Under the pieces are notes generated by a model. The model worked only from the letters and a program-made list of their open reading frames with translations, made no database searches and was not told the DNA's origin. This document shows positions 33,290-58,485 of a stretch of DNA of 58,485 nucleotides, piece after piece. Made by a program: the position numbers and the translations under genes. Source of the stretch: an uncultured Pelagibacteraceae bacterium (GTDB taxonomy: Bacteria > Pseudomonadota > Alphaproteobacteria > Pelagibacterales > Pelagibacteraceae); assembly GCA_902586495.1 (NCBI GenBank), contig CACIHQ010000008.1, forward strand, positions 1-58,485, in the 5' to 3' direction. Position 1 is the first letter of the stretch, and each line of letters starts with the position of its first letter.

Positions 33290-33904
33290 CTAATATTGTT
33301 GTGTAACAATAATAATTAAGGCAATGATTACTAAAACACTCGCTGAGATTGTATTAATTGTTTTTGGATTTGCTTTTATCCATGTAACAAGTTTTTGTGC
33401 CAACAGAGCGTAACCAATCAAAGAAATAAAATCCAAAACAACATAAGTAGTTATTAAAATAAAAAATTGGACGATATAATTAGCACTAAAGTCAATAAAT
33501 TGAGGGAATATTAAGGGAAAGAACAACCAAGCCTTAGGACTTGTGCCCGCAACTAAAAAACCATCTTTATAAAAAGAAAAAGTTCCTTTTGAGCTAATTA
33601 TTTTCGAATTAACATCTTTTGGTGAAGATTTGTAAACATCATAAGCTAAATAAATTAAATAAATTACACCAATCCATTTAAAAATATTTAGGATATTTGG
33701 ATTGTTAGATAAAAAAGAACCAATGACAAAAATTACTAAAGTTGCCTGTATTAAATTTGCGGTAACATCTCCAAAAGCTGTCCAAATACAATTTTTAACT
33801 CCATAATTCATTGAATAAGAGATGATTACTATTCTAGGGGTACCAGGTGTAATAAATAAAAAAATAATGATCTGTAAAAAAAGGATAAAATCCAAGGGGA
33901 GCAT
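33290..33904 (-). CDS. LysE/RhtB-family amino-acid exporter, second copy
   Basis: The 204-residue membrane protein has six hydrophobic segments and LysE motifs: FITPGTPRIVIISYSMNYG (about 17-35), FGDVTANLIQATLV (about 43-56) and GTSPKAWLFFPLIFPQF (about 119-135). It exports an amino acid or similar amine. The ATG at 33904 is preceded by a T-run and a hairpin with no ribosome site; there is no better start because the frame has a TAA just upstream. It lies upstream of the second Liv operon on the same strand, separated by about 90 bases. Confidence 0.88.
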   Translation of the reverse strand: MLPLDFILFLQIIIFLFITPGTPRIVIISYSMNYGVKNCIWTAFGDVTANLIQATLVIFVIGSFLSNNPNILNIFKWIGVIYLIYLAYDVYKSSPKDVNSKIISSKGTFSFYKDGFLVAGTSPKAWLFFPLIFPQFIDFSANYIVQFFILITTYVVLDFISLIGYALLAQKLVTWIKANPKTINTISASVLVIIALIIIVTQQY

Positions 33905-33958
33905 AAAAAAAGATAGTCCTTAAAAACCGGGAACTAAAGATGGCTAAAAAGGACTATC
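33905..33958 (-). promoter_or_regulatory. Leader hairpin directly upstream of the lysE-like start
   Basis: On the minus strand GATAGTCCTT (33958-33949) pairs perfectly with AAGGACTATC (33921-33912) around a 27-base loop that contains a G+C-rich patch (GTTCCCGG). Seven T and then the ATG at 33904 follow immediately. This is a terminator-like shape placed at the start codon, with no ribosome site. A TATAAT sits just upstream on the minus strand (33966-33961), although its predicted start point would fall within the first stem arm. It could be a small attenuator or riboswitch; I recognise no known class. Confidence 0.55.
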
Positions 33959-34022
33959 AGATTATAATATATCAGGTCTTAAAAAAAATGCATTATAGTA
34001 TTTTTTAAAATATAAGGATTTT

Positions 34023-52387: not shown

Positions 52388-53809
52388 TTAATCCAACTTA
52401 ATACCAATATATCTTCTTTGATTTTGACTATTATAAATAACAAGTAAAATTGTTTTTTGATCACTATTTAAAACTTTTTTTACAACATCAGATAAGTCAT
52501 CTATCGATCTTATTTTTTTCTTTTGTGCCTCTAAAATTATACTATTTAATTCTATAGATCCTTTTAGTGGACTATCATTTTCAATTTTAGTGATTACCAA
52601 CCCTGACGTTTGATTGGGTAAATTTCTACTTTTAATATCTTCTTTATTAATCAACCTTACGTTAATTTTTAGTTTGTCAATTGAAATCTCTTTTGGTGAG
52701 GTTTTTTTCTCAGCAACTTTAAAGTCCTCTGAAGTTTCTAATCTACCAAGCGTGATTGTTTTAATTATCTCTTTTTTATTTCGCCAAATCTTTACTTTTA
52801 CATTTTTTCCAACTTCCGTTCTTGCAACAATTGTTGGAAGTTCTTTCATCTCTTTTATTTTTTCACCATTAAATTCAAGTATGATATCACCTGCCTTTAC
52901 ACCAGCTTTTTGAGAAGGACTATTTTCAGCAACACTAGCAACTAATGCGCCTCTAGGTTCATCTAAATTTTCAACATCTGCAATCTCTTTTGTAACATCT
53001 TGAATTCTTACACCTAACCAACCTCTTTTGGTTTCACCAAATTTTACTAATTGATCAATTACAATTTTTGCACTGTTAGATGGTATTGCAAAACCAATAC
53101 CAATAGAACCACTCCTTCCAAGAATTGCTGTGTTGATACCAATTACATCTCCGTTTAAGTCAAAAAGGGGCCCACCAGAATTTCCAGAGTTAATTGATGC
53201 ATCTGTTTGTATGTAGTCTTCATATCGAGTTAAACCTAATGAACGATTTCTTGCTGAAATAATTCCAGATGTAACAGTTCCACCAAATCCAAATGGATTA
53301 CCAATTGCAATTACCCAGTCACCAATTCGTGCTTTGTCAGAGTTTCCAAATTTGACTGGAATAAATTTCTCATTAGAATCTAGTTTTAGTACAGCTATAT
53401 CAGAAAGGGGATCTGCTCCGATTACCTCAGCTTTAAATTCTTTATCGCCATTAACTCTTACTATAATATCCTCTGCATCTTGGATTACGTGGTTATTAGT
53501 AATCACTATTCCTTTTTCATCTATAATAAAACCTGATCCTAGTGCAGCAGACTTCCTTTCTTGAGGTGCTCCAAATTCTTTAAACATATCTTCAAATGGT
53601 GAACCAGGTGGAAACTGAAATGGAAAGGGATTAGATTGAGTTGTAACAGTTGTAGTAGTGGAAATATTTACAACTGATGGCATTAATTTTTCTGCTAAAT
53701 CTGCAAATGATCCTGGAATTTCCTTTGAAAATGAGGGAAGTGAATTACTCCATAACAACAAGATAGAGATTAGAAATACTCTTACTTTTTTTATTTTAAA
53801 ACTTGGCAT
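52388..53809 (-). CDS. degP: Do-family (DegP-like) periplasmic serine protease
   Basis: The protein of about 473 residues has a signal peptide (about 4-29), a trypsin-like domain and two PDZ domains. The catalytic triad is His in TNNHVIQDAED (about 106-116), Asp in DPLSDIAVLKLD (about 134-145) and Ser in NSGNSGGPLFDLNG (about 209-222). It degrades or refolds damaged periplasmic proteins. A TTG frame reaches 53818, but the ATG at 53809 fits better and leaves a 14-base overlap with the DUF2065 gene. The order hflK-hflC-DUF2065-degP is conserved in Alphaproteobacteria. Confidence 0.95.
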   Translation of the reverse strand: MPSFKIKKVRVFLISILLLWSNSLPSFSKEIPGSFADLAEKLMPSVVNISTTTTVTTQSNPFPFQFPPGSPFEDMFKEFGAPQERKSAALGSGFIIDEKGIVITNNHVIQDAEDIIVRVNGDKEFKAEVIGADPLSDIAVLKLDSNEKFIPVKFGNSDKARIGDWVIAIGNPFGFGGTVTSGIISARNRSLGLTRYEDYIQTDASINSGNSGGPLFDLNGDVIGINTAILGRSGSIGIGFAIPSNSAKIVIDQLVKFGETKRGWLGVRIQDVTKEIADVENLDEPRGALVASVAENSPSQKAGVKAGDIILEFNGEKIKEMKELPTIVARTEVGKNVKVKIWRNKKEIIKTITLGRLETSEDFKVAEKKTSPKEISIDKLKINVRLINKEDIKSRNLPNQTSGLVITKIENDSPLKGSIELNSIILEAQKKKIRSIDDLSDVVKKVLNSDQKTILLVIYNSQNQRRYIGIKLD

Positions 53810-53981
53810 AATAAACAATTATAAAACCTATTACTGCAAAAACTAATCCACCAGTCCTAAGTTGTCCTGAAGGAATTAATTCTAATTTTTTCAACATACT
53901 TTTCATTTTTGATGGAAATATGGCATATAATACGCCCTCGATAAATAAGAATAGACCAAATGCAATGATCAATTCACTCAT
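53796..53981 (-). CDS. DUF2065-family small membrane protein
   Basis: The 61-residue protein has two helices, LIIAFGLFLFIEGVLYAIF (about 4-22) and GGLVFAVIGFIIVYYAKF (about 44-61), with the short loop SKMKSMLKKL between. This matches the DUF2065/YjeT family, nearly always found beside hflC. Its function is not known, though association with the HflKC complex is plausible. It overlaps degP and sits 6 bases after hflC. Confidence 0.9.
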   Translation of the reverse strand: MSELIIAFGLFLFIEGVLYAIFPSKMKSMLKKLELIPSGQLRTGGLVFAVIGFIIVYYAKF

Positions 53982-53987
53982 TAATAA

Positions 53988-54860
53988 TTAATTTGATTGA
54001 GGCTGTTTTATATTTCCAAAAAATTTAAAAAACTCGCTGTCAGGTGATAAAATCAATGAAGTTTCACCTCCTATCAAAGCCTTTTCGTATGCTTGCATTG
54101 CTCGATAAAATGCAAAAAATTCTGGATCTTGTCCAAAGGCACTAGCAAATATATTATTTCTCTTACCATCGCCTTCACCTTTCATAATCTCTGATTTTTT
54201 TTGCGCGTCAGCTAAGATCACCGTTACTTCTTTATCTGCTGTGGAAGTTATTGTTACTGCCATCTCCGCACCTCTTGCTCTAAATTCTTTTGCCTCTCTT
54301 TCCCTTTCAGTCTGCATTCTTCTAAAGATCGCATCACTGTTTGCTTGAGGAAGATCTGCTCTTTTTATTCTCACATCATTAATTTTTATCCCAAAGTTTT
54401 CAGCTTCATTATTAACTCCTTCTTGAATTAAAGCCATTTGCTTTGTTCTATCTTCTGATAATAAAGTTTGAAGTTCTTGTTGACCTAAAACATTTCTAAT
54501 TCTTGAATTAATAATTGTTGCTAATCTTGATCTAGCTACTCGCTCATTACCCACAGAAATATAAAATTTTAATGGATCAACTATTTGAAATCTAGCAAAA
54601 GCATCTACGATTAATCTTTTTTGATCTGATGCAATGACCTCTTCAGGTGGAGTATCTAAATTTAAAATTCTTTTATCTAAAAAAACCACGTTTTGAATAA
54701 ATGGAATTTTAAAATTTAAACCTGGTTTCACAATTATTCTTTTCGGGTCACCAAACTGCAAAACGATAGCTTGATTTACTTCTTTTACAATAAAGATTGA
54801 AAAAAATAATGTTGCAGCTATTGCAACACTAATACCAGCAATAATTTTTCCCATACTCAT
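53988..54860 (-). CDS. hflC: HflC, FtsH-protease modulator subunit
   Basis: The 290-residue protein has an N-terminal transmembrane helix (about 5-25) and an SPFH/band-7 domain facing the periplasm: VLQFGDPKRIIVKPGLNFKI (about 33-52), RFQIVDPLKFY, DVRIKRADLPQ (about 168-178) and REREAKEFRARGAE. With HflK it forms a large cage around FtsH and limits its activity. It lies 3 bases after hflK. Confidence 0.96.
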   Translation of the reverse strand: MSMGKIIAGISVAIAATLFFSIFIVKEVNQAIVLQFGDPKRIIVKPGLNFKIPFIQNVVFLDKRILNLDTPPEEVIASDQKRLIVDAFARFQIVDPLKFYISVGNERVARSRLATIINSRIRNVLGQQELQTLLSEDRTKQMALIQEGVNNEAENFGIKINDVRIKRADLPQANSDAIFRRMQTEREREAKEFRARGAEMAVTITSTADKEVTVILADAQKKSEIMKGEGDGKRNNIFASAFGQDPEFFAFYRAMQAYEKALIGGETSLILSPDSEFFKFFGNIKQPQSN

Positions 54861-54863
54861 ATT

Positions 54864-55967
54864 CTAATTAGTCACTTTCTTTTTTAACTCAGGAAGTGGT
54901 AAATAAGGCACTACCCCTGATCCAGCATTTTTTTCTATAATCACTTTATCTATGTCTGCTAAAACCTTTTCCATAGTTTCCAAATACATTCTTTCTTGTG
55001 TTACTGATTTAGCATTTTTGTACTCATTATAAATTGCTAAAAATCTGCTTGCTTCACCTTCCGCTTTTGCAACAACCTCTTTTTTATATGCTTCAGCAGC
55101 TTGCAATATTTTTGCAGCTTCACCACGAGCTCTTGGTATAACATCGTTTGCATATGCTTCAGCCTCATTCTTAGATCTTTCCATATCAGCTCTGGCTGCT
55201 TGTACATCTCTAAACGCATCAATTACTTGATCTGGTGGATCGGCTTTTTGTGTTTGAACTTGAGTGATTTGGATACCACTTGAATACTCATCTAAGATTT
55301 TTTGAATAATCTCTTGCGTATCAGTTTCTATTAAAGATCTTCCCTCTGTAAGAATAGGTTGAATATTTGATCTAGCAATTACTTCTCTCATTGCAGTTTC
55401 TGCTGCGGCTTTTACAGTACCTTCTGGATCTTGAATCTTAAATAAAAAATTTCCAGCATCTTTAATTACCCAAAAAACTGAGAAATCTATATTAACAATA
55501 TTTTCATCTCCAGTTAGCATTAAGCTTTCTTGTGGAACATCAGCAACACCACCTTGAGAAGAAAATCCGCTATCTCTTTCAGACCTGAAACCTATATCTA
55601 TTCTGTTCACCTTTGTAACTTTTGGGGTAAGCACAGATTCAACGGGAAAAGGAATATGATAATTTAATCCTGGTTGAGTAGTTTTTACAAACTTTCCAAA
55701 TCTTAAAACTACACCCTGTTCATCTGGCAGCACTCTGTAAAGACCACTTGCCAACCAAACAAAACCTAAAATAAGCAAAACTAAGATAGCTTGTTTTCCA
55801 CCAGAAGAACTTCCACCTGGTAAAAACCTTTTTAGTTTTTCTTGAAATTCTCTTATAATTTTATCGACATCAGGTGGTGTTGGTCCTCTACCTGAACCAT
55901 TTCCAGTTCCTCCTCCTGGGGGTTTGCCCCAAGGACTTCCACCGCCTTGTCTGAAATCATCTGACAT
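54864..55967 (-). CDS. hflK: HflK, FtsH-protease modulator subunit
   Basis: The 367-residue protein starts with a Gly/Pro-rich cytoplasmic tail (GGGSPWGKPPGGG, about 8-20), one transmembrane helix (about 60-78) and the SPFH domain (YRVLPDEQGVVLRFGKFVKT, about 78-97), followed by the long helical region (ARADMERSKNEAEAYAND). It pairs with HflC. Its start is 52 bases from the divergent mrp start; promoters for both must share this gap. Confidence 0.96.
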   Translation of the reverse strand: MSDDFRQGGGSPWGKPPGGGTGNGSGRGPTPPDVDKIIREFQEKLKRFLPGGSSSGGKQAILVLLILGFVWLASGLYRVLPDEQGVVLRFGKFVKTTQPGLNYHIPFPVESVLTPKVTKVNRIDIGFRSERDSGFSSQGGVADVPQESLMLTGDENIVNIDFSVFWVIKDAGNFLFKIQDPEGTVKAAAETAMREVIARSNIQPILTEGRSLIETDTQEIIQKILDEYSSGIQITQVQTQKADPPDQVIDAFRDVQAARADMERSKNEAEAYANDVIPRARGEAAKILQAAEAYKKEVVAKAEGEASRFLAIYNEYKNAKSVTQERMYLETMEKVLADIDKVIIEKNAGSGVVPYLPLPELKKKVTN

Positions 55968-56019
55968 TATGGCAATCTATATAATGTCTTTATAATGAAA
56001 AACAAGGTAAGATCACATA

Positions 56020-56844
56020 ATGCCTAAGGAAAAGCCAGAATTAAGTGACGCAATGCGTAAAAAGTTGAGTGGAAAATCAACCGAACGGAAGCCAATTAAT
56101 GGAACAAAATTCACTATTGCCATTTCTAGTGCTAAGGGTGGAGTAGGAAAGTCAACTTTTGCAACGAACCTTGCTTTAGCTTTAAAACAAATCGGCTGTA
56201 GAGTTGGGTTGTTAGATGCTGATATATATGGACCTTCTATTCCTAAAATGTTTGGGATAAATGAGAAACCGAAGAGTGATGGTCAAAAGTTAGAGCCAAT
56301 CATAAAATACAACATTCAATGTATGTCTATAGGCTTTCTGACTGATGAAAAAACCCCTATGATATGGAGAGGTCCAATGGTAACAAGCGCAATTAAAACA
56401 TTTACTCAACAAGTAAATTGGAAAGATTTAGATTTTATAATTGTAGATATGCCACCTGGAACTGGCGATACTCAATTAACTTTTTCTCAAAGCATTGAAA
56501 TGAATGGGGCAATTATAGTATCTACCCCTCAAGAAGTAGCTCTTTTAGATGTTAAGAGAGGAATAAAAATGTTTGATAAACTAGGGGTAAAAATTTTGGG
56601 TCTTATAGATAATATGAGCTCTTTTACAGGAGATGATGGAAAAAAATATACAATTTTTGGAGAGGGTGGAGTTAAAAGAACCGCAAAGGAATTTAATAAA
56701 GAATTTTTAGCTGAAATACCAATTGATCCAGATGTTGGTAAATTTGCAGATCAAGGAAAGCCAATAGTAGAAAGTAATCCTAACAATGAGATATCTAAAA
56801 TCTATATTAATTTAGCAAAAAAAATTAAATCAATTTATCTTTAA
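56020..56844 (+). CDS. mrp: Mrp/ApbC-like P-loop ATPase lacking MIP18 domain and CxxC
   Basis: The 274-residue cytoplasmic protein has the deviant Walker A motif [18 protein letters not shown] (about 32-49), [14 protein letters not shown] (about 66-79), and [13 protein letters not shown] (about 145-157), all typical of the Fe-S carrier Mrp/ApbC. Two parts are missing: the N-terminal MIP18 (DUF59) domain, replaced by about 25 charged residues, and the CxxC, since after DNMSSF the chain reads [15 protein letters not shown] with no cysteine. Fe-S binding at that site is therefore doubtful. The ribosome site AAGG lies before the ATG; the end overlaps the convergent thyX by 20 bases. Confidence 0.9.
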
Positions 56845-57772
56845 GTTCTAAAGCGGACATAAGCTCGTTCCACTCTCTTTTTGATAAGCCAGACTTTTCA
56901 GCATCAACTTTTTCACCACTAATAAGTTTTTGTATTATTTTTTTTCCTTTTGATGATACTTCAGTACCTCCCACTCTATAATCTAAAAATGCATCATAGG
57001 TAATTGGTACCCATCTTTTAACAGTATCTAACATAGCATCTGCATAAGCCCTTATTTCATATTGAGCGTGATAATCAGCTCTTAATCTTAAAAAATTCAT
57101 TAAATTTAAAAGATCTGTTTTCCAATACCACTGTGTATAAGTGTTTAAAGTTAAATTCATTCTTGCTAGTTCTCTTGCTAAACCAACTTGTTTTTCATCT
57201 ATTACAGAGCCATCATATCTCTCATTAAGCATAGTTTCATAATTATCATAAGTTTGCTCAGCATCTTTCTTTAGCAAACTTAGAACCTTTTTGGCTTGAT
57301 CGCCTGTAAGAACATCTCCTCTTCCTTGTCTATTACTTTGAGATTGCGCTGCTAAATTTTCTATTGTAGGTAAATAAAATTCTTTATCTAAAATAGAGTA
57401 TCTTGCTGAATATTCATTCACATTTGCGGTTCTGTGCCTAATCCATTGTCTAGCAATAAAAATTGGAAGTTTAACATGATATTTAATTTCACACATTTCA
57501 AATGGAGTGCTATGCCAGTGTCTCATTAAATACTTTATTAAGCCAGAGTCAGTTGAAACTTTTTTAGTACCCTTGCCGTAAGAAACTCTTGCTGCTTGGA
57601 CTATTGAAGTATCATCTCCCATATAATCAATAACTCTGATAAAACCATGGTCTAGAATGGGTATTGCCTCATAAAGAATTTTTTCTAGTTCAACTACAGT
57701 AACTCTTTTTGTTTTATTTTCTTGAGACTGTAGCTCTTTAATTTCATGTTGTTGTTCTTTAGTTAATTTCAT
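56825..57772 (-). CDS. thyX: Flavin-dependent thymidylate synthase
   Basis: The 315-residue enzyme makes dTMP from dUMP with FAD and methylene-tetrahydrofolate. The ThyX signature is [14 protein letters not shown] (about 109-122), preceded by QWI; further conserved parts are [16 protein letters not shown] (about 85-100) and [20 protein letters not shown] (about 200-219). ThyX replaces ThyA in many streamlined bacteria. The ATG at 57772 faces the tmRNA-like gene; the 3' end overlaps mrp. Confidence 0.96.
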
Positions 57773-57816
57773 GAATAATTTATTGAATCTTTAAGAGTTA
57801 CTTTTATATCAATCAT

Positions 57817-57942
57817 GTTGGTTTTCCAACTATGACGATAAACGAATTTCGTAATAACCATTGCGGACGTGGGGGCAGTACCCACCACCTCCACCATTTA
57901 CAACTTATGGGGGTGAACTAGATTTGACGGATGGCCAAATTC
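57817..57942 (+). ncRNA. ssrA: Permuted alphaproteobacterial tmRNA: acceptor piece, spacer and start of the coding piece
   Basis: A G+C-rich island in A+T-rich DNA has the layout of a circularly permuted tmRNA. The 3' half comes first: a hairpin (57817-57830), a GGACG block (57865-57869), a T-arm stem GTGGG/CCCAC (57869-57873 and 57881-57885), and the 3' acceptor strand CACCTCC followed by ACCA (57886-57896). After a 12-base spacer comes the 5' acceptor strand GGGGGTG (57909-57915), complementary with one G-U pair, then AACTAGATTTGACGG like the start of other tmRNAs. P2 pairing is visible: ATGG with CCAT and AAATTC with GAATTT (57844-57849). The tag-coding region is not recognisable because a gene ends at 57949. 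Confidence 0.78.
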
Positions 57943-57948
57943 TATATT

Positions 57949-58485
57949 TTAATAAAAATATTCTTTAAAAAAGTTATCAATTTCTAATTTATCTTTTAAT
58001 AAATCTTTATTTGTTGTACTAGCAATACTATCAACTAATTCCTTTAAAGAATTTTCCTCATAAACTCTTCCAATCTTATTTCTCGAGTATTCCTCAATAG
58101 ATTGATCATTATATTTTTTTGAATATTTATTTAATATTTTTTTTGGAGAATTAATCAAAAAAGCTTTTTTTTTTTGAAAATACGAAAATTCTATGAATAT
58201 TCCCGACCAATCAGAAATAAGTGCGTTAAAATTGTAAAAATCAATCTCATCGTTATCATCTATTTTATAACCTATAGTTTCTAACTCTAATCTTGAAACT
58301 TCTTTTTTTGTAAAGGATGTAGGATGGGGTCTTATAGAAAAGCGCATATTTTTTTCGCTTAATAGTTTAAATAAAATATTATGATAATTATTTTTAAAAA
58401 AAGAAGTATTCCAAGATGGAGCGATTAAAATATTTAAATTGAAATTTAAAGGTTTGAAATTTTTACTAAATAAAGCATATTTTGA
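57949..58485 (-). CDS. CDP-glycerol glycerophosphotransferase (TagF-like), C-terminal part
   Basis: The frame is open from the right edge to a TAA at 57951-57949, giving about 178 residues; the first visible Met at 58347 is internal. The reading contains LNILIAPSWNTSFF, then SIRPHPTSF (about residues 52-60 of the visible part), and NALISDWSGIFIEFSYFQKK, the donor-site block of TagF/CDP-glycerol:poly(glycerophosphate) transferases and related glycosyltransferases. Such enzymes add glycerol-phosphate or similar groups to surface polymers. The 5' part lies beyond the window. The stop lies only 7 bases past the last recognisable tmRNA base. The gene may be the first of a cell-surface island. Confidence 0.8.
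   Translation of the reverse strand, partial: SKYALFSKNFKPLNFNLNILIAPSWNTSFFKNNYHNILFKLLSEKNMRFSIRPHPTSFTKKEVSRLELETIGYKIDDNDEIDFYNFNALISDWSGIFIEFSYFQKKKAFLINSPKKILNKYSKKYNDQSIEEYSRNKIGRVYEENSLKELVDSIASTTNKDLLKDKLEIDNFFKEYFY

Follow-up and report, generated by a model that had tools for sequence, protein, structure and literature searches.

A truncated two-piece tmRNA gene, probably a fragment at the edge of a surface-polysaccharide island, in two SAR11 assemblies

The tmRNA of alphaproteobacteria is described in Rfam as a two-piece molecule (RF01849, alpha_tmRNA), and in Candidatus Pelagibacter ubique its gene, ssrA, adjoins thyX (PMC2704228, in part). Permuted tmRNAs without a coding sequence are also on record, comprising 72 unique sequences, and mitochondrial tmRNA is described as having no tag frame; the same source rejected large internal tmRNA deletions in some metagenome assemblies as unreliable (PMC11915505, in part). 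The locus that we describe here, from an uncultured member of the Pelagibacteraceae, agrees with RF01849 in its acceptor piece, spacer, 5′ acceptor strand, D-like segment and position beside thyX, and differs from it in having no outer P2 helix, PK1, tag frame or 3′ hairpin. With displaced tDNA fragments of the Islander type (PMC4383910, in part) it shares a tmRNA gene fragment at what appears to be an island edge, and relatives in which an intact copy lies past inserted genes. Unlike those fragments, it is the left half of a permuted gene, at a putative site, and a regenerated copy was not seen in its own genome. This truncated SAR11 gene did not appear among the open-licence papers listed on SAR11 tmRNA, on Pelagibacter islands and integration sites, or on displaced fragments of permuted tmRNA genes.

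Within the genus, ssrA is near-universal. RF01849 matches 328 of 399 genomes, 292 of them over the cut-off; when only the 57 genomes of at least 90% completeness are counted, 55 match. Among 61 relatives, 52 match (49 over the cut-off), including 18 of the 18 at least 90% complete. The window analysed here is the whole of one contig, 58,485 nucleotides long, from an assembly of 1,050,714 bases in 30 contigs that is 79.5% complete. RF01849 matches it at 57817-57953 with 90.3 bits (E 3.2e-23), so the likeness to half a tmRNA is not due to chance, and the match covers model positions 40-193 of 355. The features of the locus are collected in Table 1.

Table 1. Features at and around the broken tmRNA gene (positions in the window)
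Feature	Position	Strand	Evidence
Presumed Mrp-like ATPase gene, adjoining thyX	56020..56844	+	ORF; beside thyX in most of the relatives compared
thyX, the usual neighbour of SAR11 ssrA	56825..57772	-	ORF; adjoins ssrA in most of the relatives compared
Promoter-like -10 hexamer of the tmRNA gene (TATATC in the window)	57805..57810	+	Sequence comparison; putative promoter role
Acceptor piece of permuted tmRNA (5′ hairpin, P2 strand, T arm, 3′ acceptor strand, CCA)	57817..57896	+	RF01849 and RF04321 matches; 0 window-unique bases against 22 distinct relatives
12-base spacer between the two tmRNA pieces	57897..57908	+	Sequence and alignment with relatives
Start of coding piece (5′ acceptor strand, D-like segment, inner P2 strand), broken at about 57945/57946	57909..57945	+	Alignments with relatives and with AG-337-M21
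TagF-like (CDP-glycerol glycerophosphotransferase-like) gene, C-terminal part, cut by contig end, native stop	57949..58485	-	ORF; weak PF04464 match; homologues; AG-337-M21

Aligned with the intact tmRNAs of its relatives, the window agrees with them from the acceptor piece across the spacer and the 5′ acceptor strand (GGGGGTG, 57909-57915, plus strand) to the D-like segment, after which it departs from them. A same-genus search matched 311 of 399 genomes, the window's own included, and among the matches listed for these 311 the alignments, the window's own aside, stop between window positions 57929 and 57950. A preliminary description, made from the letters of the window, had recognized these same elements on the plus strand, and both the sequence and the covariance model uphold it. 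Its further claim, that both strands of helix P2 are present and complementary, is only partly right, since only the inner six-pair block survives, with one mismatch; gone are the two outer blocks that can be paired in intact relatives. These pairings were traced by eye on the covariance model. Beyond the break, with relatives diverging at about 57945 and the model match ending at 193 of 355, the locus has no complete P2, PK1, tag reading frame or 3′ hairpin of an alpha-tmRNA. The RF01849 match ends at 57953 and does not extend through 57949-58110. ARAGORN called no gene. Having no tag frame, the fragment could not by itself tag stalled proteins, and it is most likely non-functional on its own.

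The space in which the coding piece would lie is filled, as the preliminary description held, by an opposite-strand TagF-like gene, whose stop codon we confirmed at 57949-57951. The encoded protein matches PF04464 below the cut-off (E 0.0005, 19.6 bits against 22.1). The proteins most similar to it, from G168 and G170, end where it ends, and the stop is therefore considered native. Homologues are patchily distributed, occurring in 7 of 201 genomes of the genus, own included. A phage origin for this gene was considered and dropped: a search for close relatives found none in viral_contigs, and the DNA of 57700-58485 had no match in phage records.

The contig ends at 58485, inside the TagF-like gene and only 540 bases past the junction, and an assembly or amplification chimera was the explanation that we initially favoured. 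Chimeras are common in amplified single cells (PMC1855051, in part), the contigs of several relatives end inside the tmRNA gene, and in one relative (G223) the start of a contig fuses tmRNA to inverted thyX, in what looks like a fold-back, at almost the same position. We abandoned this explanation once the same junction was found in a second assembly. Searching genome_contigs with the TagF-like protein returned one record, contig CABZPS010000013.1 of AG-337-M21, which is 93.8% identical to window positions 52949-58485 over 5,537 bases and carries the same gene, 97% identical, against the same truncated tmRNA; in both cells the gene ends 4 bases past the tmRNA break. Since no artefact would arise twice, in assemblies that are separate and diverged, we take the truncation to be real, and either inherited or shared by recombination, and we regard a chimera at the contig end as extremely improbable. 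Exact patterns spanning the junction occurred 0 times in genome_contigs and 0 times in viral_contigs, as patterns that could not match AG-337-M21, which differs within them.

The join in the contig of G223 is an observation in its own right. In its first 110 bases (L118:1-110, contig C8 of that genome), tmRNA and inverted thyX meet at a short word common to both; this is apparently an amplification fold-back, of the mechanism described in PMC1855051 (in part), at nearly the same tmRNA base as the junction in the window. A hairpin origin for the window's own junction was also considered and rejected, as the stem that can be drawn there is no stronger than those of shuffled sequences (z -0.48; 58 of 200 as good), and its energy was reached by 680 of 2000 random triple transitions.

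The two assemblies differ unevenly across the region that they share. Over 52949-58485, 14 of 138 four-fold sites differ in the TagF-like gene and thyX, against 73 of 343 in mrp, hflK and hflC; because divergence is lower in the former pair, the comparison hints that the TagF-like gene, the ssrA fragment and thyX may have spread as a block by recombination. Beyond the remnant, the AG-337-M21 contig reads, towards the remnant, through genes whose products we take to be a sulfatase/LTA-synthase-like protein, a PPDK-like protein, an amidotransferase and a nucleotidyltransferase, and then the TagF-like gene, which in the window has the sub-cut-off Pfam match given above. The fragment adjoins an operon of surface-polysaccharide type, and in both cells a fragment of the target gene abuts foreign genes, the pattern sought in identifying island-end fragments.

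We consider it probable that the window carries the left-hand fragment of an ssrA gene at the edge of a cell-surface-polysaccharide island, with an intact ssrA lying beyond that island. The near-universality of ssrA in the genus counts in favour of this reading. The arrival of the island, or recombination with it, would have broken ssrA in two, its acceptor half staying next to thyX. Of the truncation by island insertion put forward in the preliminary description, the break and its abutment on a surface-polysaccharide-type operon in two cells are borne out, while the insertion event itself is conjectural. Relatives provide parallels: in one single-contig genome (G012) one large ORF lies in the 1.9 kb between thyX and an intact tmRNA gene, in another genome (G009) two large ORFs lie in the corresponding 3.1 kb, and in both the intact tmRNA lies beyond the inserted genes. 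In G009 a 16-base copy of the tmRNA start lies 43 bases from the start of thyX, compared with 44 in the window. Against the island-edge reading, the alignment score of this scar (27) does not exceed what 50 shuffles gave (best 30), leaving only its position as telling, and G012 has no tmRNA scar beside thyX. Counted by hand, some 35 of the 311 genomes with a match show two separate matches and a best E weaker than 1e-60 (G009 and G012 are those examined), suggesting frequent separation of thyX and tmRNA. In G170 a similar gene set is located between mrp and thyX, and ssrA matches in full.

The far side of the putative island can be placed by comparison. Contig C14 of the window's genome ends 60 codons into ppdK, after glyQ-glyS, and the glyQ-glyS-ppdK genes are those that follow ssrA in two relatives (G141 and G084), so the far side is unassembled. 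An intact ssrA beyond the island would then reside in this unassembled stretch, towards ppdK and glyS. In G170 it is nadA that follows ssrA; the window genome's own nadA neighbourhood contained no tmRNA piece in 38 kb. Two further points weigh against the island-edge reading: no intact ssrA was seen in either cell, that is, in the window's assembly or in the AG-337-M21 sequence examined, and smpB is absent from the window's assembly.

The same two points favour what is the main rival, a true loss of trans-translation, by which the island would have destroyed the only ssrA gene and left a sub-lineage without tmRNA tagging, perhaps without SmpB, and dependent on another means of ribosome rescue. 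The covariance model, run over the rest of the assembly, gave only weak matches below the cut-off. The two strongest, on contig C4, were examined as a candidate for the missing coding half and discarded, because they turned out to be tmRNA 3′ hairpin copies that flank a LAGLIDADG-like gene. BLAST with the coding half of G318 found two matches of 18-19 bases (E 0.07 and 0.2), which is the level of chance. The idea, raised in the preliminary description, that the coding piece had been displaced elsewhere is thus not borne out in the assembled part, and the second intact ssrA gene for which it proposed a search does not appear there either. Its suggested search for smpB (PF01668) was likewise without a match. 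For each of these absences, it counts against true loss that the assembly is just 79.5% complete. Moreover, smpB is missing from 36 of 151 genomes of the genus (present in 115) but from only 2 of the 22 that are at least 90% complete (present in 20), and its absence is therefore often a gap. The genes that neighbour smpB in relatives were likewise not found in the 65% of the assembly examined, apart from one unlinked match of about 70% identity, a result that is gap-like without being decisive. An assembly gap explains the absence of smpB as well as loss does. The decay of the sister remnant in AG-337-M21, discussed below, fits the island-edge reading and adds some weight to true loss as well; we regard true loss as possible but unlikely.

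These searches bear equally on a trans-split tmRNA, in which the remaining coding piece would be transcribed from another locus. In its favour, a mature permuted tmRNA consists of two pieces in any case (PMC11915505, in part). No such piece turned up in the assembly with either the covariance model or BLAST, the break falls inside the coding piece and would have cut that piece itself in two, and the sister copy is decayed; we assign this arrangement a negligible likelihood.

The state of the fragment differs markedly between the two cells. Changes were assigned to lineages with eight relatives. In AG-337-M21, 16 lineage-specific changes have accumulated in the 108 bases corresponding to 57817-57924, compared with 7 in the 948 bases of its thyX; CCA is lost, the acceptor and T stems no longer pair in places, and the remnant reaches no family at gathering score (RF01849, 48.3 bits against a cut-off of 50). 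The window, in contrast, retains a tRNA-like domain with acceptor stem, T arm and CCA, and has 0 lineage-specific changes in the same 108 bases, compared with 4 in 948 in thyX, where the four-fold differences of thyX and the TagF-like gene would predict a few neutral changes per branch. Compared with 22 distinct relatives, it is free of unique bases in 57817-57924 but has three immediately ahead of the break, at 57925, 57934 and 57936; the states at 57934 and 57936 are also found in AG-337-M21, which is outside that set. All of the window's changes sit at the junction end, 57925 and 57940 being its own and 57934, 57936 and 57941 being common to both cells.

The unchanged 108 bases are the best argument against reading the window's copy as a dead fragment. 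They may reflect selection, or recent recombination with an intact gene. We favour recombination, because the changes cluster next to the junction, as would be left by a replaced tract ending at about 57924; gene conversion from an intact ssrA up to that point could have kept the fragment intact-looking. Selection could explain the unchanged bases equally, and to that extent they count against the island-edge reading.

Selection is what a functional tag-less tmRNA would require, the tRNA-like domain alone being retained in the window's cell as it is in mitochondria; the preliminary description had raised this with reference to jakobids. The window resembles the mitochondrial CDS-less tmRNAs (PMC11915505, in part) in that only the tRNA-like domain remains, and the contrast between 0 changes here and 16 in the sister would fit such a role. 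It differs from them in its D-loop, a conserved loop in which the unique change at 57925 falls, and in its promoter-like hexamer, which is TATATT in 38 of 40 distinct sequences, AG-337-M21 included, and TATATC in the window; most of P2 is also gone. The decay of the sister copy speaks against placing the window's copy among tag-less tmRNAs, and we judge a functional role of this kind distinctly unlikely. Equally slim, in our estimation, is the chance of the broader scenario in which tagging and the mRNA-like half of tmRNA have both disappeared from a free-living SAR11 sub-lineage, some of whose cells keep the tRNA-like domain under selection.

In SAR11, a near-universal ribosome-rescue gene lies at a site that takes up islands of surface genes, and physical disruption of the gene can occur at that site. 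Should complete genomes that carry this junction prove to have no other ssrA, they would be rare examples of free-living bacteria without trans-translation; if they have another, islands at this site would leave decaying ssrA fragments able to mislead annotation.

Other sequences derived from tmRNA are present in the genus. On contig C4 of the window's genome (L009:1599-2916), a gene for a 365-residue LAGLIDADG_3/HNH_repeat protein lies between direct-orientation copies of the tmRNA 3′-terminal hairpin; from its sequence, this looks like a small mobile element that uses the tmRNA 3′ end as its site. Lone copies of the 3′ hairpin without a tmRNA occur in several genomes of the genus (L050:6111, L050:6772, L057:4616, L059:7074, L062:881, L062:1903, L063:2483, L068:778 and L125:1247), and 5 of the 13 copies listed have in common an upstream ACAAAGTT(C/T)G, unlike tmRNA itself. 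These lone hairpins seem attachment-site-like, and two others (L095, L131) are probably the 3′ ends of tmRNA genes in stretches that were cut. Elsewhere in the window, a rhtB RNA element (RF01814, 70.7 bits), a known SAR11 motif, lies on the minus strand at 33894-33976. Phage-borne two-piece tmRNA is already known (PMC9004378, in part), and the exact SAR11 tmRNA acceptor motif occurs in 49 contigs of viral_contigs (L205-L253); the 6 of 6 tested (L206, L207, L209, L226, L232 and L244) match alpha_tmRNA from end to end.
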